Assembly: GCF_000242875.2 (NCBI RefSeq)
Contig: NZ_AEXL02000090.1
Coordinates: 62,001 to 126,000, forward strand
Direction of reading: 5' to 3'
Length of the DNA: 64,000 bases
Origin: Candidatus Nitrosopumilus salarius BD31
GTDB lineage: Archaea > Thermoproteota > Nitrososphaeria > Nitrososphaerales > Nitrosopumilaceae
The notes under the pieces were generated by a model. It searched no databases. It worked only from the letters and a program-made list of their open reading frames with translations, and was not told the origin of the DNA. Below, one piece after another: positions 32,299 through 63,497 of this stretch. Position numbers and translations under genes: made by a program. Numbering within the stretch: position 1 is the stretch's first letter; every line of letters begins with the position of its first letter.

Positions 32299-32350
32299 CA
32301 ATTCCAATTAAAGTACAAATGTACTTCAATAATCAAAATTACAAAACAGA

Positions 32351-33820
<1,470 letters not shown>

Positions 33821-33974
33821 TAGACATGGAAAAGTGTACGGGTGTACATAATCTTCACATTGAATCATCGATGCAATGCATCACGAAAGTGGTGTATGAA
33901 GGATGTAGTGGGTCTCTAGCCGGAGACTTGCAATGATCGTCGTGCATAGTCGTGTAATATGTGGCTGAATATAC
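33821..33974 (+). other. 16S-23S spacer with processing arms, no tRNA
   Basis: The spacer is about 154 bases. It carries the right arm of the 16S stem (33838-33861) and the left arm of the 23S stem (33937-33951 and 33961-33969, which pair with 36981-36995 and 36963-36971). I find no cloverleaf or T-loop sequence, so the tRNA-Ala common in many archaeal spacers is missing here. Confidence 0.85.
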
Positions 33975-36953
<2,979 letters not shown>

Positions 36954-36962
36954 ACACATCAG

Positions 36963-36995
36963 TTCAGCCACTTACATAGAGACTATGCGCGATGA
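36963..36995 (+). other. 23S rRNA processing stem, right arm
   Basis: Two segments, 36963-36971 and 36981-36995, pair with 33961-33969 and 33937-33951, leaving an internal loop of nine bases on each side. This brackets 23S and is the expected substrate of rRNA-processing endonucleases. No 5S rRNA is found in the sequence that follows; a T-rich stretch at 37042-37055 may end the transcript. Confidence 0.75.
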
Positions 36996-45750: not shown

Positions 45751-45773
45751 TTTTTTTATTTTTTTATTTTTTT
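45751..45773 (+). terminator. Triple T7 terminator between phasin and phaC
   Basis: Three runs of seven T separated by single A residues begin six bases after the phasin stop. Archaeal RNA polymerase terminates on oligo-T, so this should end the phasin transcript. It touches the stop codon of the convergent phaC gene. Confidence 0.8.
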
Positions 45774-46836
45774 ATGACCTTTCAGCCAACCATTGTCCTA
45801 GCTCCGGTAAAACCTTCTTTTGTGATAATGAACTAGCAATCATTCCTACATGGCCTGTTGGATACATCCTCAATGTTTTATCTTCACTTCCTACTGCATA
45901 ATGTAATGGCATGCTGCACTCTGGTGAAACTAAATGATCTCCCACGGCAATCTGTGTGAAAATGGGCATATCGATTTTCTTCAAATCTATGTGTTCGCCT
46001 CCAACATACATTTTATTTTGAATAAGAAGATTTTCTTGATAGATATCTTTAATCCACTGTTTGAATAATTCTCCTGGTATTGGTGGTGTGTCACCTAGCC
46101 ATTTTTCTACTCTGAGAAAATTATCCACGAACTGTTTATTGTCTATATTTTTAAAAAATTTGACATATTTTTCAATTCCTTGCTCAAATGGTTTGAGTAC
46201 TGAAAAGCAATAATACATAAATTCTGGAGGCATGTTTCCTATCGTATCTACCATTTTATCTACATCCATATGCTTTGCAAGATTGCTTATCACTGTAGTA
46301 TCGCGCCATCCGTCAATAACTGGTGCTGTTGCTATGTAGTTTTTCACACTTTCTGGATGCAATGATGCATAAGTAGTAGCAATTGTCCCTCCAGTACAAT
46401 ATCCTTGCAATGAAATTTTTTCAGAAGATGACTCGTTTTTGATATGTTCTACAGATGAATCCAAATAACCATTAACATAATCATCAAAATCAAGATATTT
46501 GTCCATGCTGGTGGGCGTACCCCAATCTAACATATACACATCAAATCCTTGTAAAAGCAAATTCCTCACCCAACTTTTTTCTGGTTGAATGTCTAGTATG
46601 TGATATCTGTTAATCAGTGCATATGAAATTAACAATGGTGTCTTATGCTGTTTCTCAGTAAGTGGTCTGTAGTGCAATAATCTTGTTTTATCTATCTGTT
46701 GTACAATATCATGTGGTGTGACCTCTAAACTAATTTCATCCGGAGCTGAAACTAATTTTGGTGCATTAATAACATTTTTGCTGAATTTTAAAATCTCTTC
46801 TACAATTTTTGGGTCTATATGTGATTCACTTTGCAT
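45772..46836 (-). CDS. phaC: Class III poly(3-hydroxyalkanoate) synthase subunit PhaC
   Basis: 354 residues, the normal class III length. The catalytic Cys147 lies in the lipase-like box GYCTGG; Asp (VGDHLVSPECS) and His (PTGHVGMIA) complete the triad. It polymerises hydroxyacyl-CoA to PHA storage polymer and needs PhaE. It starts within the end of phaE (11-base overlap), so the two subunits are translationally coupled. It converges with the phasin gene. The monomer could come from 3-hydroxybutyryl-CoA of the carbon-fixation cycle. Confidence 0.95.
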   Translation of the reverse strand: MQSESHIDPKIVEEILKFSKNVINAPKLVSAPDEISLEVTPHDIVQQIDKTRLLHYRPLTEKQHKTPLLISYALINRYHILDIQPEKSWVRNLLLQGFDVYMLDWGTPTSMDKYLDFDDYVNGYLDSSVEHIKNESSSEKISLQGYCTGGTIATTYASLHPESVKNYIATAPVIDGWRDTTVISNLAKHMDVDKMVDTIGNMPPEFMYYCFSVLKPFEQGIEKYVKFFKNIDNKQFVDNFLRVEKWLGDTPPIPGELFKQWIKDIYQENLLIQNKMYVGGEHIDLKKIDMPIFTQIAVGDHLVSPECSMPLHYAVGSEDKTLRMYPTGHVGMIASSLSQKKVLPELGQWLAERS

Positions 46837-47404
46837 TTTTCTTCATCTCTTGTTTTTTCAATTCTAATTCTAATTTTGACACTCTTTTTTTAAGAGAATG
46901 CATTTCTTTATACACTTCGTCAATTTCTTCCTTACTGGGAAGATTAACTGATTGCAAAATTACATTTGTGATGTTATTCCAATGTTTAGTTAATTCAAGT
47001 TCCTTGGATACTAATTTTCCATAATTTTCTCCAAATTTTTCCGAATCAAATAATTCTGTAAAATCATTATCAAAAATATCTATCCATATTCTTTTGAACG
47101 CCTCAATTTGCTCAACATCTTGAGGTATGTCTGGAACTTTTAGATTTGTTTTCTTTTGTGCAATGCCCCATGTGTCTGCAAGTTGTTTGTAATATTCAGT
47201 AAGATACTGATTAAATTCCATGAGGTCATCATTTATTTCAATTAATTCTGTTGATATTTTCTTTGAATTAGATGCAAATGCTCGCATTGGTCCAATTGAA
47301 CTGAGAGCTTGAGGCTTGCTTGACATCAAATGAATGATATCTGTCCAGAAAAGCGATAAATGCTTGTAATAATCGGTAGTATTTTTTGATGGTTCTGATT
47401 GCAC
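46826..47404 (-). CDS. phaE: PHA synthase subunit PhaE
   Basis: 192 residues, helical, with no enzyme motif. It activates PhaC in class III synthases. It has the family segment WIDIFDNDFTELFDSEKFGENYGKLVS followed by a C-terminal coiled coil (KKRVSKLELELKKQEMKK). It is directly upstream of phaC and overlaps it. Archaeal PhaE is much shorter than bacterial forms, and this length fits. Confidence 0.9.
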   Translation of the reverse strand: MQSEPSKNTTDYYKHLSLFWTDIIHLMSSKPQALSSIGPMRAFASNSKKISTELIEINDDLMEFNQYLTEYYKQLADTWGIAQKKTNLKVPDIPQDVEQIEAFKRIWIDIFDNDFTELFDSEKFGENYGKLVSKELELTKHWNNITNVILQSVNLPSKEEIDEVYKEMHSLKKRVSKLELELKKQEMKKNAK

Positions 47405-48307: not shown

Positions 48308-48601
48308 TTAATTCATACACTCTGGGGCTTTACCCTCGTGACGTTTCTTATACTCTGCGATTAATTCGTTTTTTATCCTTCCAAAATCTTTTTCCTTTCT
48401 GTATCTGAATCTTGTAGCATTAGAAACACATTTTTCAGAAATGTCCTCAATTGTTTTTTTCATATTTTCTGACCCTCCGATATACAATATTTTCATGGCT
48501 GCATGCATCATGAATACTCCTGATGCTTCAGGAACTTTTGAAACCATATCTTGGTTAAAGTCTAACCAGTCAGACCATTCTATCTGCTGTATTTTATTCA
48601 T
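48308..48601 (-). CDS. Small GIY-YIG-like protein
   Basis: 97 residues. VPEASGVFMMHAAMKILYIGGSENMKKTI has the shape of a GIY-YIG nuclease start, with GVF in place of GIY and LYIGGS in place of YIG. A Glu is available downstream (KNELIAEY), but the Tyr of GIY is missing, so activity is uncertain. It overlaps the end of tfb by eight bases and is likely co-transcribed with it. Confidence 0.6.
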   Translation of the reverse strand: MNKIQQIEWSDWLDFNQDMVSKVPEASGVFMMHAAMKILYIGGSENMKKTIEDISEKCVSNATRFRYRKEKDFGRIKNELIAEYKKRHEGKAPECMN

Positions 48602-49505
48602 TTAACATCTTTCTTAATCCTGCACATCTGTTTCTAATGGTTACTTCTGTAACCCCTGATGCTATTGAGATGTCTTTTTGTGATTTTGTTTCTCCCGTAC
48701 TAATACATGCAAGATATAGTGCTGCAGCTGCTATGCCCATAGGATCTTTTCCTGCAACCATCCCAATTTCTTTTGCTTGATTTAAGATTACAATTGCCTT
48801 CCGCTTACTTTTTTCACTCAACTCTGCAATACTTGCTATTCTTGACACACCTTTTACCGGATCTACTACTGGCATTTTTAACTCCAATTCTCTGAAGATT
48901 AATCTGTAACATCTTGCAACATCCTTTCTTCTAATGTTGATTCCCTTTGCAATATCATCTAACGTTCTAGGCGTTTCCGTGTTTCTACATGATGCGTAAA
49001 GACATGCAGCAACTAATCCTTGAATTGATCTACCTCTGACCAATTTTTTCTCCATTGCTTTTCTGTAAATGTAAGCTGCTTTCTCAACTACTGAATCTGT
49101 CAATGCAAGTTTGTCTTTTAATTTATCCATTTCATTTAATGCTTGTCTTAGATTCCTATCCGCAGAAGAATGTGCTTGTGTCCTGCTGTCCCAAGTTCTC
49201 AATCTTTCGATAGAGCTTCTCACGCTTGCAGACAGTGGCTTACCTGTTGAATCTTTGTTTGCTGCACCAATTATGGTTGATAAACCCATGTCGTGCATTG
49301 TTAGTGACGTTCCTGCTCCTACTCTAGTTCTATTACTTTCATCATTTGAAAAAGAACGCCATTCTGCACCTGTTTCTGCAATTTTATCTGTAACTACTAG
49401 TCCGCATTTACCACAGAATAACTCTCCTGTAGTTTGGTCTGTGACCATTTTTTTGTCTCCACATGATGGACATTTAGGACCTGAAATCATTGTATTTTTA
49501 AGCAT
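48594..49505 (-). CDS. tfb: Transcription initiation factor B (TFB), canonical
   Basis: 303 residues. The N-terminal zinc ribbon is complete (CPSCGDKKM...FCGKCGLVV). The B-reader follows (GAEWRSFSNDESNRTRVG), then two cyclin folds ending GVTEVTIRNRCAGLRKML, the DNA-contacting helix that reads the BRE. It recruits RNA polymerase to TBP-bound promoters. The start could also be the ATG at 49490 (MISGPKC). The window has a second, divergent TFB at 55409. Confidence 0.96.
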   Translation of the reverse strand: MLKNTMISGPKCPSCGDKKMVTDQTTGELFCGKCGLVVTDKIAETGAEWRSFSNDESNRTRVGAGTSLTMHDMGLSTIIGAANKDSTGKPLSASVRSSIERLRTWDSRTQAHSSADRNLRQALNEMDKLKDKLALTDSVVEKAAYIYRKAMEKKLVRGRSIQGLVAACLYASCRNTETPRTLDDIAKGINIRRKDVARCYRLIFRELELKMPVVDPVKGVSRIASIAELSEKSKRKAIVILNQAKEIGMVAGKDPMGIAAAALYLACISTGETKSQKDISIASGVTEVTIRNRCAGLRKMLNE

Positions 49506-51185: not shown

Positions 51186-51572
51186 GTGTTGACAAAAATT
51201 GGCGTTGGGGAAATAATTTACAGTCTACGTAAAAAAATCCATGACATTCAATTTGAATTAGATCAATTAGATAACCCGTCATCTGAAATTCCTGAATTAA
51301 TTGACTCTGCAAATCAATTGCGTTTAAACGAATATTTATCTAAAGTCAATGATAAGAAAACTGATCTCTTATCTGCCTATGAACAATATTCAGTAGCTTT
51401 GGAGGAATTATTATCAACAGTATTTGATATACAAAATGAACTAAAAGATATTTTGAAAGAACAATCGTTAATGATTAGCTCGAAATCACAAAAATCACAA
51501 AAATCACAAAAATCACAAAAATCACAAAAATCACAAAAATCACAAAAATCACAAAAATCACAAAAATATTAA
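51186..51572 (+). CDS. Coiled-coil protein with nine SQK repeats
   Basis: 128 residues from a GTG start. Residues ~1-98 are helical and charged (a likely coiled coil or helical bundle, VGEIIYSLRKKIHDIQFELDQLDN). The C-terminal 28 residues are a pure (SQK)9 tail coded by the 9-bp tandem repeat at 51486. The tail is basic and disordered and rich in possible phosphorylation sites. The family is unknown. It is convergent with birA. Confidence 0.65.
   Translation: MLTKIGVGEIIYSLRKKIHDIQFELDQLDNPSSEIPELIDSANQLRLNEYLSKVNDKKTDLLSAYEQYSVALEELLSTVFDIQNELKDILKEQSLMISSKSQKSQKSQKSQKSQKSQKSQKSQKSQKY
51486..51566 (+). repeat. 9-bp tandem repeat, nine exact copies
   Basis: TCACAAAAA repeated nine times without error, in frame, coding Ser-Gln-Lys. 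Copy number can change by slippage without shifting the frame. The perfect identity shows recent expansion or homogenisation. Confidence 0.95.
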
Positions 51573-55239: not shown

Positions 55240-55425
55240 TCAATCTTTTTTCTTACTTCGAGGCTTTGTTCTTAATACTGCTTTACAACAAACACATCTT
55301 GTATCCTCTGATGACAAAAATATCCCACAAAACGTACATCTTTTTTGTCCAATTTCATACCTAATTTTGTTTGGAACTGGCTCTGCTTTATGCATCTGGC
55401 AAATTCCCCTACATGTTCGACCCAT
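55240..55425 (-). CDS. Small zinc-ribbon protein linked to tfb2
   Basis: About 61 residues (MGRTCRGICQMHKAEPVPNK start). Two Cys pairs plus extras (CTFCGIF, CVCC) give a zinc ribbon in a basic protein (KPRSKKKD tail). The start overlaps the end of the divergent TFB by 17 bases, so it is co-expressed with that TFB. It may be an accessory factor, or a free-standing ribbon for the TFB that lacks a complete one; this is inference. Confidence 0.75.
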   Translation of the reverse strand: MGRTCRGICQMHKAEPVPNKIRYEIGQKRCTFCGIFLSSEDTRCVCCKAVLRTKPRSKKKD

Positions 55426-56329
55426 TAATTTCACCTCCTATTCTTTCTTTGATCTCCTTAGTTCTGTCTCTGATGGTAACTGAGCTAATTCCTGATACTT
55501 TAGAAATTTTTACTTGAGATATTTTTTCATGATTTATCGTAACTGCTAAATTAACGGCTGCAGCTGCCATGCCAATAGGATTTTTGCTTGTTGAAATGTT
55601 TTTTTTTGCTGAAATTCTGAGTATTTTAAATGCGAGTCGTTCTGTTTTTTCTGAGATATTCGCTGCTGTAGCAATTCTTGTCACAAATTCAATTGGGTCA
55701 TATGATTCAGGATTAATTTGTAATTCTTTTACAAGAAACCTGTATGTTCTTTGTAAATCCCTCTTCTTGATGTTGCCAGCATCTGCAACATCTTGTAGTG
55801 TTCTAGGGATGTTGGTACTTCTGCAGGCAATGTATATTGTAGCACAAAGTATTCCTGATGTGGATCTTCCTGTGAGAATTTTTTTAGCAGCAATTTTTCT
55901 AAATAGATATGCAGTGTGTTCAGTAACTGATTCTGGTAATGCCAGTTTTGATGAAATTCCGTCTAATAATGTAAATGCTTTTTGAAATGATTTTACTGCA
56001 TTAGATGAGCGACTATTTCTATCCCACATTCTTAAGCGGTAAAACATACGACGATTCTCTACTGATAATGATTTACCTGTGGAATCTCTGTCTTTTGATT
56101 CGATAATTGTTGACAGACCCATGTCTATCATCTTCAAAGAAATTTTTTGCCCACTTCTACTGTTATTCTGATATTCTTCACTAAAGTAACCTGATCTTTC
56201 TACCCCTGAATCAATAACTCTTTCAGAAAAAACTGAACCGCAGCTACCACATGCAATTTCACCTGTGTAAGGATCTGTGATCAAGCTATTTTTTTTACAG
56301 TTTTTTTGATGCACTAATTTTGTTAACAT
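55409..56329 (-). CDS. Divergent TFB paralogue with incomplete zinc ribbon
   Basis: 306 residues. The two cyclin folds and the C-terminal recognition helix (GISSVTIRDRTKEIKERI) are clear. In the N-terminal ribbon, the second knuckle CGSCG is intact but the first, CPxC in normal TFBs, reads HQKNCKKN with one Cys only. The B-reader is also altered (SGVERSGYFSEEYQNNS). It may bind the same TBP but choose other promoters. A small zinc-ribbon gene follows it. Its promoter has a TTACCACTAG element. Confidence 0.9.
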   Translation of the reverse strand: MLTKLVHQKNCKKNSLITDPYTGEIACGSCGSVFSERVIDSGVERSGYFSEEYQNNSRSGQKISLKMIDMGLSTIIESKDRDSTGKSLSVENRRMFYRLRMWDRNSRSSNAVKSFQKAFTLLDGISSKLALPESVTEHTAYLFRKIAAKKILTGRSTSGILCATIYIACRSTNIPRTLQDVADAGNIKKRDLQRTYRFLVKELQINPESYDPIEFVTRIATAANISEKTERLAFKILRISAKKNISTSKNPIGMAAAAVNLAVTINHEKISQVKISKVSGISSVTIRDRTKEIKERIGGEINGSNM

Positions 56330-56349: not shown

Positions 56350-56455
56350 TTATTTAAGGTCAGGATATTTTTTTAACTAGTGGTAAATTATACCTAAAAT
56401 TCATGTTAATTTAGCAATCTTGGCACTAGTTCAATTTTTGTCAATCGTATAAATA
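56350..56455. promoter_or_regulatory. Divergent promoters of tfb2 and 56480 gene with TTRNCACTAG elements
   Basis: Minus strand: TATA-like box at 56350-56358 (about 25 bases before the ATG at 56329) and TTACCACTAG at 56377-56386, leaving 18 nt between them. Plus strand: TTGGCACTAG at 56420-56429, 18 nt gap, then TATAAATA at 56448-56455. A weaker TTGTCAATCG (8 of 10) abuts that TATA box. The same layout recurs at 57.7-57.9 and 62.5 kb. Confidence 0.7.
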
Positions 56456-56479
56456 AAAAAATTAATGAACATATTTAGC

Positions 56480-56839
56480 ATGCCCCATATTGTTTTAGAT
56501 CAACAAATTGATCTTTTTGATTATTCAAAAAAGTTCAGTCCTGTTTTCCAAAAATCACCTCTAATTAAAATTCCAACCATCTATGTTGAAAAGGATGGCA
56601 ATGTTGCAATATTACCAACTATTGTAATTGACGAAAAACATCAGGAGTTTTTTATTCAAATTATTACAAATGCTAAAAAAACTACTATTAGGTTATTGCC
56701 TCAAACAGATCCTGAAAAAACTGATTCTGTCAAATTTTCATTAGTCAAAGTTTACGATCAAATGAAGTACAACTATCCTAACATCTCAATATCAAAATCA
56801 AATTTATTTGATTATGTCCAAATGCATGAATCTATGTGA
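56480..56839 (+). CDS. Hypothetical protein with TTRNCACTAG promoter
   Basis: 119 residues from the ATG at 56480 (MPHIVLDQQIDLFDYSKKF). The ATG at 56465 is only about 13 bases from the TATA box centre at 56452, while 56480 is 28 bases away. The protein is soluble and alpha/beta, with a likely domain of repeated hydrophobic strands (VAILPTIVIDEKHQEFFIQI). I do not know the family. It is divergent from tfb2. Confidence 0.65.
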   Translation: MPHIVLDQQIDLFDYSKKFSPVFQKSPLIKIPTIYVEKDGNVAILPTIVIDEKHQEFFIQIITNAKKTTIRLLPQTDPEKTDSVKFSLVKVYDQMKYNYPNISISKSNLFDYVQMHESM

Positions 56840-56860: not shown

Positions 56861-57706
56861 TTAATTATATTTTCTTATAATTTTTGGAATTTCTTCTAAT
56901 GTCCCATCACGAATAATCTCTCCATCAAATTTTGGAATTTTGGTTGTCTGAATGGCGTATCCTCCAATTAATATCGGATTTTTATATTTTTCTTTTATTT
57001 TTTTTACTAATCTTTGACCAGCTCCTAAATTATCTTCAAGTGTAATTGAAATCAGAATTATGTCTGGTTTATTATTTTGAATAAAATTCAGAACGGATTC
57101 TGTAGGAATCGATGTACCTATGTTGTACACTTTGAATCCTTTAATTGTTAGATATGTTTCTAATACGTCACAGCCTAAATGATGTTCTTCTCCTAATGGG
57201 ACACAAATGAGGATCTTTTTCTTTTTTCCTGAACCTGAGACTCTATCCATTATTATTTTGACTAATGTTTGAGCAATATTGCTTGCTACATGTTCAGTTG
57301 CAATGCTTATTTTACTACTGGCCCAATCATCTCCAATTTTATACATTACAGGCCTTAAAATTTTATCAAAGAAATCTGACTCGTTAAAAATTTTAATATA
57401 TTCTTCATAAATTTTTACACAATATTCGATATTGCCCTCTGTTAATTTCTTGTATAGTTGTTGTTTTGATTTTTTAGTTGCGTCTTCTCTTTTTTTGATG
57501 TCTTTTGGATTGTATGATGCTAGCATCGATAATACTTTAGGATCGTTTCTGAAATCAGGTGGAATATCCTCTTTAACAACTTCTGATGCTTTGCCTAGAT
57601 ATTTCACGATTTCTTGTTTTGAAGTGCTTTTTTTGGAATCCCATACACTTTTCACTAAGTAAAGATATTGATCAGATTTCACTTTTTTGGCTCTAATGTA
57701 CACCAT
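56861..57706 (-). CDS. CarH-like cobalamin-binding regulator with unusual N-terminus
   Basis: 281 residues. From ~82 on it matches the B12-dependent photoreceptor fold: helical cap with Trp128 and Glu138/His139 (DDWASSKISIATEH), then a Rossmann domain with the lower-ligand loop E-x-H-x-x-G (LGEEHHLG, His175) and GTSIPTESVL. In CarH a His follows the Trp and forms the light-state upper ligand; here it is Ala129. The MerR HTH is replaced by ~45 residues (QYLYLVKSVWDSKKSTSKQE, KYLGK) like the N-terminus of some transposases. Its own promoter bears two TTRNCACTAG-like elements. Confidence 0.85.
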   Translation of the reverse strand: MVYIRAKKVKSDQYLYLVKSVWDSKKSTSKQEIVKYLGKASEVVKEDIPPDFRNDPKVLSMLASYNPKDIKKREDATKKSKQQLYKKLTEGNIEYCVKIYEEYIKIFNESDFFDKILRPVMYKIGDDWASSKISIATEHVASNIAQTLVKIIMDRVSGSGKKKKILICVPLGEEHHLGCDVLETYLTIKGFKVYNIGTSIPTESVLNFIQNNKPDIILISITLEDNLGAGQRLVKKIKEKYKNPILIGGYAIQTTKIPKFDGEIIRDGTLEEIPKIIRKYN

Positions 57707-57725: not shown

Positions 57726-57762
57726 GTATATAACTAGTGATAAAATATGTTTATAGTGCTAA
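57726..57762 (-). promoter_or_regulatory. Promoter of the cobalamin regulator with two CACTAG elements
   Basis: Minus strand: TTATATAC TATA box (57726-57733), with TTATCACTAG (57734-57743) directly against it. A 9-of-10 match, TTAGCACTAT (57753-57762), lies 19 nt upstream of the TATA box. Proximal and distal spacing equals that at 57821 and 62540, suggesting autoregulation. Confidence 0.7.
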
Positions 57763-57820: not shown

Positions 57821-57856
57821 TTACCACTAGAATAAAAAATTATCACTAGTTTAAAT
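57821..57856 (+). promoter_or_regulatory. Promoter of the 57879-58149 genes with two CACTAG elements
   Basis: Plus strand: TTACCACTAG (57821-57830), TTATCACTAG (57840-57849) and TATA box TTTAAAT (57850-57856). The ATG at 57879 is 26 bases from the TATA centre, fitting a leaderless start. The 173 bases between 57706 and 57879 hold only these two divergent promoters. Confidence 0.75.
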
Positions 57857-57878
57857 GATTTATTTTCTAAGTTATTAT

Positions 57879-57950
57879 ATGGACTACAAAAAAAATCTAA
57901 ATTCTGAAACGTTTTTAAATCAATTTGACATGGAGTGCTCTTTGAATTGA
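57879..57950 (+). CDS. 23-codon ORF at the promoter start, overlapping the next frame
   Basis: Reads MDYKKNLNSETFLNQFDMEC, then SLN and TGA. The ATG is placed exactly where a leaderless transcript should start. The stop overlaps the start of the next open frame, which has no ATG, GTG or TTG start at its beginning. Either it is a short leader peptide coupled to the next gene or it is the true N-terminus of that gene, separated by a frameshift. Confidence 0.5.
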   Translation: MDYKKNLNSETFLNQFDMECSLN

Positions 57951-58146
57951 TAAAACCCTATTATTTGCAGGTGTTGCATTGCTGATACTCGGTACATGTT
58001 TTTTAACTGCTCAATCAATTGAAAATTCCCTTAGCGATGCATTTACTGTCGGCGAATATCTTTGGTTAGTATTAGGTGGATTGACAATTACTTTTGCAAT
58101 TCGTGCGAAACATGAAAAAAATAAACAGTTGGGAGTATTGAGATAG
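57946..58146 (+). CDS. Small two-helix membrane protein with non-standard start
   Basis: Open frame of 66 codons after a stop, beginning with ATT (57946): IDKTLLFAGVALLILG. Two membrane helices (LLFAGVALLILGTCFLT; YLWLVLGGLTITFAI) and a basic tail are intact. The first usable TTG (57979) would cut the first helix. It ends two bases before the next gene's GTG, so they form an operon. Possible AUU initiation by coupling, or a frameshift joining it to the 57879 ORF. Confidence 0.6.
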   Translation: MDKTLLFAGVALLILGTCFLTAQSIENSLSDAFTVGEYLWLVLGGLTITFAIRAKHEKNKQLGVLR

Positions 58147-58148
58147 TA

Positions 58149-59531
58149 GTGGAAAAAATTATCTCCGGTGAACTTTTCACTCAGTCTTCTCCTTTCTCTA
58201 TTTTGGTAACTGGGTCCACTGGTTTTATTGGGTCTAGGTTAATTTCATCACTTGCTAAATCCGGTTATACTATAACAGGCTTGAGTAGAAAAAAACTATC
58301 TGACACAAAAAATGTGAAATATGTTCAAGCTGATGTATTTGATATTAATCAACTTACCAATGCAATGAATGGTATAGAAATTGCATATTACTTACTTCAT
58401 TCTATGGAAGGGGGTAAATCTGACTGGAAAGAATTTGCTTCTCGAGAGAAGATACAAGCTCAAAATTTTCTCAAAGCTGCCTCAAAATCTGGTGTAAAAA
58501 GAATAATCTATCTTGGAGGCTTGGTTAATGACAGTTTAGAATTGTCCCCCCATATGCAAAGTCGTAAAGAAGTTGGAGCAATTCTTGCTTCTGGAAATAT
58601 CCCAGTTACTGAATTACGTGCATCTCTGATCATTGGGGCTCAAGGAGGATCTTATGCAATGCTTCGTTATCTTGTAGAACGTTTACGAATAATGGTGTGC
58701 CCCTCTTGGGTAAAATCTCTTGCACAACCAATTGCAGTTGATGATGTTATTTACTATTTATCTGAGTGTCTTAAAAAACCCGAAACACTAGGAAAAATTT
58801 TCGAAATAGGTGGCCCTGATAAAATGACATATGAAGAGTTAATGCGTGTTTATTCTGCATATTTGAACAAAAATTTGTTTGTCTTACAAATTCCATTTTT
58901 AACTACTCGTCTTTCTTCGTATTGGGTTGATTTGATTACTCCTGTTAAGGCATCACTTGCAAGACCTCTGATTGATAGTCTTGTTCATGATACAGTTGTA
59001 ACAAATAATGAGATCACAAAAATTATTCCATTGAGATTAAAATCTGTTCGTGAATCTATTGATATCGCTACTAAAGAAATGAATTCATCCCCCCCTCTGC
59101 AATCTGAATTTAAAGAAGAAAAAACTGGCTTTAAAATTAATCAAACAGTTATCCAGATATCTCTTTTTACATTGGCCATAATTGGTACTTCTTATTATTG
59201 GTTAGATGATAGACCAGAAATTTATCAACCTTTGTGGTTGTTTGGATCTTTTGTTTGGTATGTTGCAATCTTTACTGCGATTATCTTTATTCGTAATAAT
59301 GCTCGTTTGGGTTATCTGATAGCTGGTGTACTATCTTGGGTAACATTGATGTTTTGGTTATTTGATAATTTTTATGTTGTTTTTAATACCTCCTTAATAG
59401 CAAACCAGCCTAGTGCAATTATGACTCTTAGGAATTTCACAGGTATTGCAGCTGCGTCAATAACTGTAATTGCCTCTCACAATCTTTTTCACAAAGTAAT
59501 TGATTATCAGTATAAGGGTACGCCTATCTGA
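58149..59531 (+). CDS. Membrane-anchored atypical SDR (NmrA/YbjT-like)
   Basis: 460 residues. The N-terminal NAD(P)-binding domain (residues ~15-300) has TGSTGFIGSRLIS, VQADVFD and YLLHSMEGGKSDW, the last typical of YbjT/TMEM-linked atypical SDRs; the catalytic YxxxK is not obvious. From ~320, four hydrophobic helices form a membrane domain in place of the usual DUF2867 tail. YbjT-type SDRs are linked to quinone or stress responses. It is in an operon with the small membrane protein under CACTAG promoter control. Confidence 0.8.
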   Translation: MEKIISGELFTQSSPFSILVTGSTGFIGSRLISSLAKSGYTITGLSRKKLSDTKNVKYVQADVFDINQLTNAMNGIEIAYYLLHSMEGGKSDWKEFASREKIQAQNFLKAASKSGVKRIIYLGGLVNDSLELSPHMQSRKEVGAILASGNIPVTELRASLIIGAQGGSYAMLRYLVERLRIMVCPSWVKSLAQPIAVDDVIYYLSECLKKPETLGKIFEIGGPDKMTYEELMRVYSAYLNKNLFVLQIPFLTTRLSSYWVDLITPVKASLARPLIDSLVHDTVVTNNEITKIIPLRLKSVRESIDIATKEMNSSPPLQSEFKEEKTGFKINQTVIQISLFTLAIIGTSYYWLDDRPEIYQPLWLFGSFVWYVAIFTAIIFIRNNARLGYLIAGVLSWVTLMFWLFDNFYVVFNTSLIANQPSAIMTLRNFTGIAAASITVIASHNLFHKVIDYQYKGTPI

Positions 59532-59721: not shown

Positions 59722-60648
59722 TTAAATATGAGAATATGTATTTTCTTCTATTTTTAGATCTTGGAATATCTTCGGTTGAATTATTTTTGCTAATATCTCC
59801 AATCCATCTATTGTTCTAATGCTTGGTTTGCTGAAAAACGAATTTGCATCAACTGCAAAAACCTGTTTATTTTTAACAGCTTTTAATGAGTTCCAATCAT
59901 GATTTTCTTTTAGTGTGATATTATATTCTAAAATTACACGACTTGTGTCAAATCCACACGGCATCATGATAATTATGTCTGGCTCTGCTTGTTTGATTTC
60001 CTGAAAATTCAATCTTCTTGAATGTTCCCCAACTTTGCTGATCATGTTGATCCCACCTGCAATTTCTATCATTTCGGGAATCCAATGACCCGCAGTAAAA
60101 AATGGATCAATCCATTCAATTGCTAGAACTTTTGGTTTTTTATTTGTAGATCTTTTTTGTATGTTTTGTATTCTGTTTTCAAGCGAATCTGTAATTTCTT
60201 TTGCTTTACTTTCTTTTTCTAATATCTTTCCCACTTTTCTGACTGAATCAATGATTTCATGTAGATTATGTGGATTCATTGAAACTACTGTTGGTCTTTT
60301 TTCAAGAATTTCAATTGCATTGTTCACATGGTTGGTGTATGCAGCACAAACTTCGCAAGTTTCTTGCGATATGATTAGATCCGGATTTGCATCTTTGAGA
60401 TTCTTTTCGTCTAAAATGAAAATGTCTTTGTCATCTTTAAGCAATTGACAAGTTATTGCATCGATCTCTTTGCTGGTTAGTTCATTTGATTTAATTGCCG
60501 ATCTTATTACTTTTAATTTTGATGTCGCATCAGGTGGATGTTTGCATTCATGTGTAACTCCATAAAGCATATCTTGTACTCCAAATTCATAAAGTAGTTC
60601 AGTTGCGCTTGGTAGAAATGAAACAATCCTCTTAACTGACATATTCAA
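59722..60648 (-). CDS. BtuF-like cobalamin-binding protein, cytoplasmic form
   Basis: 308 residues with the helical-backbone binding-protein fold (IVSFLPSATELLYEFG; VVSMNPHNLHEIIDSV; IIMMPCGFD). There is no signal peptide. The HECKHPPDA loop (HEC-x2-P) marks the cytoplasmic cobalamin-binding protein family rather than a transport BtuF, so it may carry or sense corrinoid. It lies within the B12-regulator neighbourhood. The start could be two codons later. Confidence 0.85.
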   Translation of the reverse strand: MNMSVKRIVSFLPSATELLYEFGVQDMLYGVTHECKHPPDATSKLKVIRSAIKSNELTSKEIDAITCQLLKDDKDIFILDEKNLKDANPDLIISQETCEVCAAYTNHVNNAIEILEKRPTVVSMNPHNLHEIIDSVRKVGKILEKESKAKEITDSLENRIQNIQKRSTNKKPKVLAIEWIDPFFTAGHWIPEMIEIAGGINMISKVGEHSRRLNFQEIKQAEPDIIIMMPCGFDTSRVILEYNITLKENHDWNSLKAVKNKQVFAVDANSFFSKPSIRTIDGLEILAKIIQPKIFQDLKIEENTYSHI

Positions 60649-60741: not shown

Positions 60742-61899
60742 TTGCCTTCCGAGTCTCAAAATATTCGACGTGCAATTTTATCTAACTGGCATGAGACTCT
60801 TTCAAAATATGGCAATCTGTTTTCGTCGGATTCTATTAGTGGTTCTAGCCCGCCATCAGTTTTTGTAGGTTCTCACAATTATCCCAAAGTTTTTGTCGGT
60901 CCGATGCTTCCACCAATCCACGGCGATACAAGCTTGCTTGATATTCCTGAAAAGTGGAAAGGAAAATCTTTGGAAGAGATTGTTAATTTTAGATTGAACT
61001 TAGTTCGCGGAATACAAAAAATTTCAATTGATCAAACTGAGGGAAGATACATTGAAAATCTTCAAGAATTAACAATGTCCTCAAAACCTACTGACACTGA
61101 TATGGTATTTTCAAAACCAACGTCATCTAATATCGCACTTGATGGTGAAAGTGCTCCGTTTGGCCCTGTTGGAGAAATTGCCTCTGCAAAGTTTTCTGGA
61201 ACCACTTCTATCAAATCAATTGAAAAAACATTCTATGATCGAGACTTAAAAGCCGAAGAAGCTGTTTTAAGTTTATACAATTCTGGAATTGAAATTTCAA
61301 AAATTCAAAAATGTTTTAGTATAGGCATGCTGGGGAAAAAAAGAAAACTTGTTCCAACTAAATGGAGTATTACTGCAACTGACGATATAATTTCAAAATC
61401 TCTTGTATCTGAGATTCTAGATTACAGCTTGATTGATTCTTGTAGAGTTTTTTCTTATGAACATTTAGGTAATATCTTCACAATTGTTTTGTTTCCTCAC
61501 CGATGGGTATATGAGATGATTGAGGTATGGCATTCAGATGATGTTTTGATCTTTGGCTCTGATTTTGAAGATGCGCGTGGAATTGATCACCCACCTGCCA
61601 TCGCTGGAGCTTATTTTGCAGCAAAATTAGGTGTTTTGGAATACCTACATAAAATGAAAATTCAGGCTGGAGTTGTCGTTTTGCGTGAAATAAGACCCGA
61701 ATATGTAATTCCTGTTGGTGTATGGCAAATCCGTGAAGGTATTCGTGAAGCAATGAATCAAAATCCTGAAATTACTGCGATTTTTGATGATGCAATACTT
61801 TTGGCATCAAACCGAACGAGCATAAGTAAATTTGAATGGCTTTCTCATGGAAATATTTTGAAATTAATGCGACAAAAAACACTTGTTGATTATTTTTAA
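60742..61899 (+). CDS. nreA: Archaeal DNA repair protein NreA
   Basis: 385 residues from a TTG start. It has the family hallmark VGPMLPPIHGDTSLLDIPEKW and the C-terminal WQIREGIREAM plus SKFEWLSHG. NreA proteins take part in archaeal DNA repair and contact PCNA through a C-terminal PIP box; the C-terminus KLMRQKTLVDYF fits a PIP-like Q-x2-L-x2-[YF]F. It lies between the cobalamin-binding protein and YbgA genes. Confidence 0.92.
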   Translation: MPSESQNIRRAILSNWHETLSKYGNLFSSDSISGSSPPSVFVGSHNYPKVFVGPMLPPIHGDTSLLDIPEKWKGKSLEEIVNFRLNLVRGIQKISIDQTEGRYIENLQELTMSSKPTDTDMVFSKPTSSNIALDGESAPFGPVGEIASAKFSGTTSIKSIEKTFYDRDLKAEEAVLSLYNSGIEISKIQKCFSIGMLGKKRKLVPTKWSITATDDIISKSLVSEILDYSLIDSCRVFSYEHLGNIFTIVLFPHRWVYEMIEVWHSDDVLIFGSDFEDARGIDHPPAIAGAYFAAKLGVLEYLHKMKIQAGVVVLREIRPEYVIPVGVWQIREGIREAMNQNPEITAIFDDAILLASNRTSISKFEWLSHGNILKLMRQKTLVDYF

Positions 61900-61905
61900 G
61901 TGAAT

Positions 61906-62448
61906 TTAATCAATTTTATTTCTTAAAATTTGGAATATGTTGCCCATATCTGGATCTGAATATAATAAAAAATATGTTTGACTGGCAAGATATGTGTTGT
62001 TGAATCTGTAAATAACTGGATTTATTTCCGATAACATATTTCCAATAGTGATCTTCTTATCTTGAAATTGATTTAACAAATTAAAAAATTGTTCTTTTTC
62101 TAACTGGCTAAAATTTTTAGAAAAAAATCCAAAGATATGCATTATTACATTACTATGTGTTTTAATTGTAGGGACACTATCGAGTGAAATTTTTAAATGT
62201 TCTTCATATTCTGCAAGTATTTCTGAAAATGACACTTTTTTATTGCTTGCCACAATGTTACCTAAAATCTTTAATTCGTTTTGATTGTGTGCCATTATCA
62301 TGTATTTGTTCATTGCCTGAAATGAAATCAAGTCTTTTATCTTATTGCTTTTTTTTACATCTTCAAATCTTTCCAACACAAATTCTTTAGCATCGCTTTC
62401 TGAAATTTTTCTAATCTCCTTGCTTTTGGATTCTTGTGTTTCATTCAC
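61906..62448 (-). CDS. ybgA: YbgA/DUF1722 family protein
   Basis: 180 residues. It fits the DUF1722 pattern: KYMIMAHNQNELKILGNIVAS, EYEEHLKISL, HSNVIMHIFGFFSKNFS and QTYFLLYSDP. In E. coli ybgA is next to the photolyase gene phr, and family members often occur in light- or B12-regulated loci. The promoter has a TATA-like box at 62472-62479 and a reversed TTACCACTAG 20 bases further upstream. No photolyase is in the window. Function unknown. Confidence 0.85.
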   Translation of the reverse strand: MNETQESKSKEIRKISESDAKEFVLERFEDVKKSNKIKDLISFQAMNKYMIMAHNQNELKILGNIVASNKKVSFSEILAEYEEHLKISLDSVPTIKTHSNVIMHIFGFFSKNFSQLEKEQFFNLLNQFQDKKITIGNMLSEINPVIYRFNNTYLASQTYFLLYSDPDMGNIFQILRNKID

Positions 62449-62499: not shown

Positions 62500-62575
62500 T
62501 TACCACTAGATCTTGTTATTCTGATTTGTTTTTTAAAAGTTACCACTAGAATGTAATTTGGCACTAGCTTAAATA
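62500..62575 (+). promoter_or_regulatory. Promoter with three TTRNCACTAG elements upstream of 62598
   Basis: TTACCACTAG at 62500-62509 and 62540-62549, TTGGCACTAG at 62558-62567, then TATA box CTTAAATA at 62568-62575. The ATG at 62598 is 26 bases from the TATA centre. The first copy may also serve the divergent ybgA gene. The 149 bases between the genes are fully used by these elements. Confidence 0.75.
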
Positions 62576-62597: not shown

Positions 62598-63497
62598 ATG
62601 AAAACCACAATAACTGCAATAACTACGATACTTCTGGTTGCTTGGACTGCTTCATATGCTTATGCGGAAGTTCCATCTTGGGTAAAGAACAACGCAGGCT
62701 GGTGGGCCGATGGAACTATTACTGAATCTGAATTTCTATCTGGAGTGGCATTTTTGATAAATGATGGTATTATCATTGTACCTCAAACATCCGTTGTCTC
62801 TCAGAGTGATGAAGGAGTTCCATCTTGGGTAAAGAACAACGCAGGCTGGTGGGCCGATGGAACCATAACTGATGGTGAATTTGTCAATGGAATACAACAT
62901 CTGATTAAGATTGGATTAATTTCAGTCGCTAATTCTGATTCATCTGAAATGAATTCCCAGGACCTGCAAACTCCTGATTCTGAATTGACAACACTTGAGG
63001 CAGAACTAGAAAAATGCTCTGAAATCAAAGTGGGTTACAAAAGATTAGATTGTGAAAAACCTCTCAAAAAAGCAATTACCTTATACCAGTATAAGACCAA
63101 TGCTCAGAAATTTGAAATTGGTCCTATAACATACTATTGGTTTGGTGTCGGTTCTGAAGGTAACGAATTTGTAATTAACCCCTCAGGACAAGCTATCCTC
63201 TCAATTCGTATGTTAGCTGAGAACACAAGTTCAAAAATCACTGCTATGCATTGCACAAGCCCCTCTATATGCAGCTATGATGTATGGGATGGATCAAAGG
63301 CATTCAAATATTCTGGAATGGACTTTACCAGTGGGGAAATTGTGTTGAATCCAGGTGATTCTAGAGAATTTAACATTCTCTTTGGTCCAAATATTGGATA
63401 TGGTGGAACAAAGTTTGAATACGATTCTTCAAATACATATTATTTTAGAATCAATGAACCCTTTGGAAGCACAAACATTCTTCTAGAATTGGAGTAG
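62598..63497 (+). CDS. Secreted protein with two near-identical W-modules
   Basis: 299 residues. Signal peptide (ITTILLVAWTASYAYA), then two modules VPSWVKNNAGWWADGTIT (residues ~25-60 and 74-108), then a beta-rich domain of ~180 residues with Cys pairs (KCSEIK, HCTSPSIC). It is exported and probably surface-bound. It is the gene with the most complete CACTAG promoter. The domain is unknown to me. Confidence 0.75.
   Translation: MKTTITAITTILLVAWTASYAYAEVPSWVKNNAGWWADGTITESEFLSGVAFLINDGIIIVPQTSVVSQSDEGVPSWVKNNAGWWADGTITDGEFVNGIQHLIKIGLISVANSDSSEMNSQDLQTPDSELTTLEAELEKCSEIKVGYKRLDCEKPLKKAITLYQYKTNAQKFEIGPITYYWFGVGSEGNEFVINPSGQAILSIRMLAENTSSKITAMHCTSPSICSYDVWDGSKAFKYSGMDFTSGEIVLNPGDSREFNILFGPNIGYGGTKFEYDSSNTYYFRINEPFGSTNILLELE
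62669..62863 (+). repeat. Perfect 48-bp direct repeat coding the W-module core
   Basis: 62669-62716 and 62816-62863 are identical, 147 bp apart, in frame. They code the core of the W-module. Identity at synonymous positions suggests a recent duplication or conversion. Confidence 0.95.

Follow-up and report, generated by a model that had tools for sequence, protein, structure and literature searches.

A candidate adenosylcobalamin-dependent light switch in ammonia-oxidizing archaea joining a CarH-type sensor to a transposase-type N-terminal sheet

A CarH-like B12-binding protein encoded in a 64,000-nucleotide stretch of DNA from Candidatus Nitrosopumilus salarius BD31 (referred to as the window) is, on balance, an adenosylcobalamin (AdoCbl)-dependent and probably light-released regulator, which would act in the manner of CarH/LitR through a DNA-binding domain that is not of the MerR type. 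The more specific proposal, for which the scales are evenly poised, is a one-protein AdoCbl light switch of ammonia-oxidizing archaea that combines a CarH-type sensor with a transposase-type three-stranded DNA-binding sheet, controls a regulon including a dedicated archaeal transcription factor B (TFB), and acts through an operator of direct repeats 19 bp apart at the TATA box. New here is this TTRGCACTAG direct-repeat operator, which is located at Trp-type promoters and flanks the genes of the surrounding island. Because operator sites lie among light-damage genes next to a CarH-like sensor, the system is probably a light-controlled gene switch. The features concerned are collected in Table 1.

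Table 1. Positions in the window of the CarH-like protein, its domains, the putative operator sites and the putative target genes
Feature	Position	Strand	Support
CarH-like B12-binding protein, CDS, 281 aa	56861..57706	-	ORF list, Pfam, residues, orthologues; AF2 pLDDT 88.6
IS1634-transposase-like N-terminal module, residues 1-40, putative DNA-binding domain	57587..57706	-	AF2, searches
B12-binding_2 four-helix bundle, residues 82-156, with Wx9EH cap (W128, E138, H139)	57239..57463	-	Pfam, AF2
Rossmann B12-binding domain, residues 160-281, lower-ligand His175 (E173-x-H-x-x-G178)	56864..57229	-	Pfam, fold search
Putative own-promoter operator, TTAGCACTAT (57762-57753) and TTATCACTAG (57743-57734), 19 bp apart, then TTATATA	57734..57762	-	73/76 Trp-type promoters
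Putative operator directed towards the divergently transcribed SDR gene, TTACCACTAG and TTATCACTAG at 19-bp spacing, then TTTAAAT	57821..57849	+	
Half-site TTACCACTAG ahead of the TFB gene	56377..56386	-	21/36 TFB promoters
Half-site TTGGCACTAG ahead of the 124-aa gene	56420..56429	+	28/29 promoters
Three half-sites (62500, 62540, 62558) between the DUF1722 and secreted-protein genes	62500..62567	+	
TFB paralogue, putative target	55409..56329	-	Pfam TFIIB 4e-32
124-aa conserved protein, putative target	56465..56839	+	site in 28/29 promoters
SDR / NAD-dependent epimerase-like protein, putative target	58149..59531	+	Pfam Epimerase 2.2e-12
DUF1722 protein, putative target	61906..62448	-	PF08349 7.9e-33
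Secreted-type protein with VPxWVKNNAGWWADGxI repeats, putative target	62598..63497	+	

Pfam searches of the protein returned B12-binding_2 at residues 82-152 (6.5e-11) and B12-binding at residues 165-254 (1.2e-12), with no HTH or MerR family and, for residues 1-53, no match even at E<=10. Its top match was the NCBIfam CarH model (residues 78-254), which scored 60 bits where the cut-off is 400. The AF2 model, built from 47 sequences, consists of a sheet (residues 2-39) followed by the four-helix bundle and the Rossmann domain, and each of the top 50 PDB folds is a photocobilin, Thermus thermophilus CarH or a MerR-type B12 protein from Chloracidobacterium, the nearest being photocobilin and CarH with E ~1e-11. 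Both the Wx9EH cap and the D/ExHxxG lower-ligand motif are present. The original prediction had placed the cap at Trp128 and Glu138/His139 and the lower ligand at His175, and these residues were found as described, with Wx9EH at 128-139; together with P201, they are invariant in 76 of 76 distinct Trp-type members. That the upper-ligand His position, His132 in CarH, is occupied by Ala129 was likewise confirmed by direct reading of the residue, and His is absent from the six commonest classes at this position (A49, E9, S6, D3, K3, V2), which cover 72 of the 76 members. The signature reported for light-responsive cobalamin-binding domains, namely GxxW, EH, GxxH and GxxxP (PMC11796333), is present in the window protein as G125-W128, E138-H139, G172-H175 and G197-P201, position 197 being G in 57/76 Trp-type members. 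By fold matches and island content, a CarH-like cobalamin-binding domain (CBD) rather than a methyltransferase corrinoid protein is supported.

The 1.57-Mb genome holding the window, from Nitrosopumilaceae, encodes the adenosyltransferase CobA/BtuR, so that the AdoCbl cofactor can be made; a PduO-type adenosyltransferase was looked for in this genome and is absent. For T. thermophilus CarH, there is disagreement over what the upper His does: the H132A variant was found to stay mostly tetrameric after light, while disassembly had been reported earlier (PMC10442372). Since residue 129 is not an upper-ligand His and H132A stays mostly tetrameric, CarH-style disassembly may not apply to the archaeal protein, and the photochemistry of a regulator lacking the upper His may differ from that of Thermus CarH.

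Relatives were collected from 50 GTDB loci (53-87% identity) and orthologues were sought in 61 related genomes. As 45 of the 50 relatives are full length, the remaining five running off contig ends, and 26 of the 61 genomes hold an orthologue, the ORF is not a chance frame. A more distant relative, L072, comes from another family and shares 33% protein identity.

Among Trp-type members, the most conserved region is formed by residues 1-40 (mean identity 90%), where R5, K7, Y14, Y16, L17, V18, S20, W22, Q31, Y36, L37 and G38 are invariant. AF2 predicts three antiparallel strands here (E2-9, E12-23, E28-39; pLDDT 92) and not an HTH, which, together with the Pfam result, agrees with the earlier proposal that the MerR HTH has been replaced. 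When the L072 N-terminus was searched by tblastn against 7.3 Gb of plasmids, 26 records were obtained (E from 3e-3), of which the annotated ones are nearly all IS1634 transposases; of seven annotated transposases examined, five have the match starting at their residue 1. The L151 N-terminus retrieved one record, an IS1634 (E=1), and a reversed-query control gave a single match at E=6. The window protein's own N-terminus had no match in the plasmids, the bridge to IS1634 being made only via the more divergent L072 and L151 relatives. Profile-profile comparison by hhalign of the module with IS1634 N-termini, a set chosen as matches and thus favouring the score, yielded a probability of 96.8% and a score of 48.3, against a best score of 20.1 and a probability of 24% in 200 column-shuffled controls, in line with the resemblance to IS1634 transposase N-termini that had been noted originally. 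A PDB fold search with residues 1-53 gave nothing significant (best Ctf19-Mcm21 and PC4, E>=1), a PDB profile search with the N-terminus gave no matches, and no solved DNA-binding domain significantly matches the predicted fold of residues 1-40.

The same module starts a Fic/DOC protein (L171) of a related archaeon (G149 C1:1012207-1012320). Judged by these similarities, the module is common to IS1634 transposases, a Fic protein and the CarH-like regulator. The suggestion that a transposase segment had been domesticated is in keeping with the IS1634 likeness, but as the Fic/DOC protein begins with the same module, it is only one possible origin. N-terminal profile matches in other archaea (L167-L170) were weak and judged unconvincing.

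The promoters of the regulator genes carry TTRGCACTAK-N9-TTRGCAYTAGTTAWATA, i.e., two direct copies of which the second touches the TATA box (in the window TTATATA, about 57733-57727), and in all but one of 51 distinct promoters (50) the distance between the copies is exactly 19 bp. With further genera included, the TTRGCACTAG pair is found in 73 of 76 Trp-type promoters (70 at 19 bp, two at 20 and one at 18), and the L072 promoter bears the pair at 18 bp. Sites in the window start at 56377, 56420, 57734, 57753, 57821, 57840, 62500, 62540 and 62558, the last two being 18 bp apart and followed by TTAAATA. Over the fetched loci (518 kb), 281 strong single sites were counted versus five for the reversed motif, and the pair spacing is 19 bp in 62 cases and 18 bp in 18, with 0-8 at each other spacing from 12 to 31. 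Scanning of the 61 genomes revealed 43 tandem sites versus three in the reversed control. They occur in 23 of the 26 genomes with an orthologue and in none of the 35 without, a co-occurrence that is not phylogeny-free, as most gene-bearing genomes belong to one genus. Among the 35 genomes lacking a site, G021 and G053 contain divergent Trp-type relatives; that of G053 has the operator at 18-bp spacing, which the pattern misses.

By promoter class, strong sites in the fetched loci precede the genes for DUF1722 (37/37), the 124-aa protein (28/29), the regulator (43/47), the secreted protein (34/38), TFB (21/36), SDR (19/38) and FAD oxidoreductase (9/32); some of these counts depend on one another, since in several cases two divergent genes have a promoter region in common, and the loci themselves share ancestry. 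None of 91 control promoters of eight other neighbours has a strong site, and no operator lies directly ahead of the photolyase gene (0/8). Such a conserved operator would fit a DNA-binding role for the CarH-like protein.

The genes of the island commonly run secreted< DUF1722> (photolyase>) SDR< regulator> FAD-oxidoreductase< small gene< 124aa< TFB>, with DUF1722>photolyase> in L019, L020, L027, L037, L038 and L039. The window's island lacks the FAD oxidoreductase and the small gene after it, and the place taken in other genomes by the photolyase is filled here by an Nre gene together with a BtuF-like gene. The conserved genes of the island include no recognisable methyltransferase, and the predicted regulon showed no gene for B12 synthesis. 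The LitR regulon of Pseudomonas includes phrB, a short-chain dehydrogenase (SDR) and an FAD oxidoreductase (PMC9758184), and RudS with DUF1722 has been reported in a bacterial LitR regulon (PMC11417400). By analogy, the photolyase, SDR, FAD oxidoreductase and DUF1722 genes of the island match the bacterial LitR light regulon, and it is mainly this shared gene content that points to light as the signal.

Several neighbouring features deserve mention in their own right. The BtuF-like Peripla_BP_2 protein (59722-60648), found in the island of the window's subgroup, starts MNMSVKRIVSFLPSATELLYEFG and apparently lacks a signal peptide; none of 15 BtuF-like gene promoters has an operator. The archaeal Nre gene (Nre_N, Nre_C; 60742-61899) adjoins the island and is also without an operator. 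Between the operator and the SDR gene (57862-58148) lies a short membrane-protein-like frame (~67 aa, IDKTLLFAGVALLILGTCFLTAQS...) that has no clear standard start. Two TFB paralogues (48594-49505 and 55409-56329) are located 6 kb apart, of which only the second has an upstream operator in the window. Farther away are a PhaC-like polyhydroxyalkanoate synthase gene with a likely partner gene adjoining (45772-47404; PhaC_N 2.5e-12), the 16S and 23S rRNA genes (32350-36966), within which the listed protein ORFs are spurious, and an ORF with a long SQK tandem repeat at its end (51186-51572).

Several of the same genomes also encode a paralogue family, B (~37% identity), which has lost the W, E and H of the cap (G128, Q138, T139) and kept His175, with 60% identity over residues 1-40 versus 23% over the helix bundle. 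Its genes (L065 6402-7265, L069 11968-12831 and relatives) have a divergently oriented MEDS-domain gene as neighbour, joined in several of the genomes by a photolyase operon, and a different conserved block around ACTCATCAAGGTGCGTAATTGGATTAAATAC is found in their promoter. A myxobacterial CarA-type paralogue that is B12-independent and lacks the Trp has been described (PMC9304148), which family B by analogy resembles: the photolyase-linked family B likewise has no cap Trp, keeping the lower His and the N-terminal domain. However, Myxococcus CarA retains the EH lost in family B, which is also without MerR and belongs to a separate cluster with the MEDS protein.

For the Trp-type regulator, we infer binding to the operator, AdoCbl as cofactor, light as signal, and repression rather than activation. 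The C-terminal half would hold AdoCbl between the Wx9EH helix bundle and His175, while the three-stranded N-terminal sheet would bind the TTRGCACTAG direct repeats, spaced by 19 (or 18) bp, beside the TATA box. The predicted targets are its own gene and a light- and oxidative-stress island (SDR, FAD oxidoreductase, DUF1722 plus photolyase, TFB), with photolyase control going through the DUF1722 promoter. In the dark, an oligomeric AdoCbl form would sit on the operators, masking BRE/TATA and blocking TBP/TFB; in light, breakage of the Co-C bond would release or remodel the regulator and induce the island, and the dedicated TFB could relay the signal onward.

The closest alternative is a corrinoid-based sensor of redox state or B12 that governs the same genes, that is, a DNA-binding regulator responding to cobalamin availability or to redox/oxygen state instead of light. 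We regard this as unlikely though by no means negligible: the missing upper-ligand His and the BtuF-like gene in the island of the window's subgroup speak for it, but that gene lacks the operator, B12 synthesis genes are not seen in the predicted regulon, the island shares its photolyase, DUF1722, SDR and FAD oxidoreductase genes with the LitR light regulon, and the light-responsive CBD signature is present. A corrinoid carrier for a methyltransferase is scarcely credible, the weak matches to MtaC/MtgC-type corrinoid protein models being outscored by the CarH model (itself far under its own cut-off), with an invariant Wx9EH cap, no recognised methyltransferase in the island and no methyltransferase corrinoid fold among the top 50 PDB matches; it was rejected on model scores, PDB folds and island content. 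Of the two findings that the original prediction named as speaking against it, a known non-DNA-binding domain at the N-terminus and a methyltransferase-type B12 fold with a methyltransferase nearby, neither was encountered.

The other two alternatives concern who contacts the DNA. The N-terminal module might be a protein-protein or RNA-binding element whose transposase likeness is that of a generic beta meander, as a three-stranded sheet without a significant fold match and its occurrence at the start of a Fic protein would allow. This appears quite unlikely, given an hhalign score of 48 against at most 20 in the shuffled columns, the lack of anything comparable from the reversed query, matches that start at transposase residue 1, and a conserved operator at the promoter of a regulator with no other candidate DNA-binding part. 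Decidedly unlikely is that the operator is read by another factor, such as the island TFB or a further regulator, with the CarH-like protein as a co-regulator making no DNA contact. The second repeat does abut the TATA box, where TFB binds the BRE, and a TFB gene is present in most fetched neighbourhoods; yet neither the inverted copies nor the repeat located 19 bp upstream occupy BRE positions, the operator is kept in L053, whose regulator neighbourhood yielded no TFB, the 18-bp version lies ahead of L072 despite its different family and low identity, and the island core contains no further recognisable DNA-binding protein.

Compared with known systems, the AdoCbl-dependent regulator proposed here shares with CarH/LitR (T. 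thermophilus CarH, PDB 5C8D/5C8E) the four-helix bundle and Rossmann CBD, the Wx9EH cap, the lower-ligand His, direct-repeat operators overlapping promoter elements and a photolyase-linked regulon, but has a three-stranded sheet, no MerR domain and no upper-ligand His. In CarH homologues, the His after Trp, which is the light-state upper ligand, occurs in many but not all. The operators differ in unit and spacing, tandem 11-bp nnnnTnnACAn repeats in CarH contrasting with the putative archaeal 10-bp unit at 19 bp beside TATA. As no MerR winged helix-turn-helix was found, the protein is not classed as a CarH/LitR member. Photocobilins, which provide the best fold match (8j2x), have in common GxxW/EH/GxxH/GxxxP and, in the alignment, no His after Trp, whereas the archaeal protein has no bilin domain. 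The outputs described for light-responsive CBD proteins (SignatureFinder) comprise HTH, diguanylate cyclase, bilin-binding, GAF and MEDS domains, and a sheet of the present kind is not among them. With the IS1634 transposase N-terminus, the protein shares the core YxYLVxSxRD...RQxxIKxLGR from residue 1; it differs in lacking a DDE catalytic domain by Pfam and in having the module fused to a B12 sensor, while the Fic/DOC protein carries a Fic catalytic domain instead of the CBD. Neither a CarH-like regulator with a transposase-type sheet nor a light-dependent regulator in ammonia-oxidizing archaea was found described in a literature search that took in a minority of subscription papers and preprints.

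In the sea, ammonia-oxidizing archaea rank with the most abundant of all cells, and light inhibits them. Their light response becomes directly testable once a protein, its putative operator sequence and the predicted target genes can be named. If the proposed switch is true, the B12 light sensor would be a portable module that can be joined to an unrelated DNA-binding domain, and one that operates in the archaeal TATA/TFB setting instead of the bacterial sigma-factor one.
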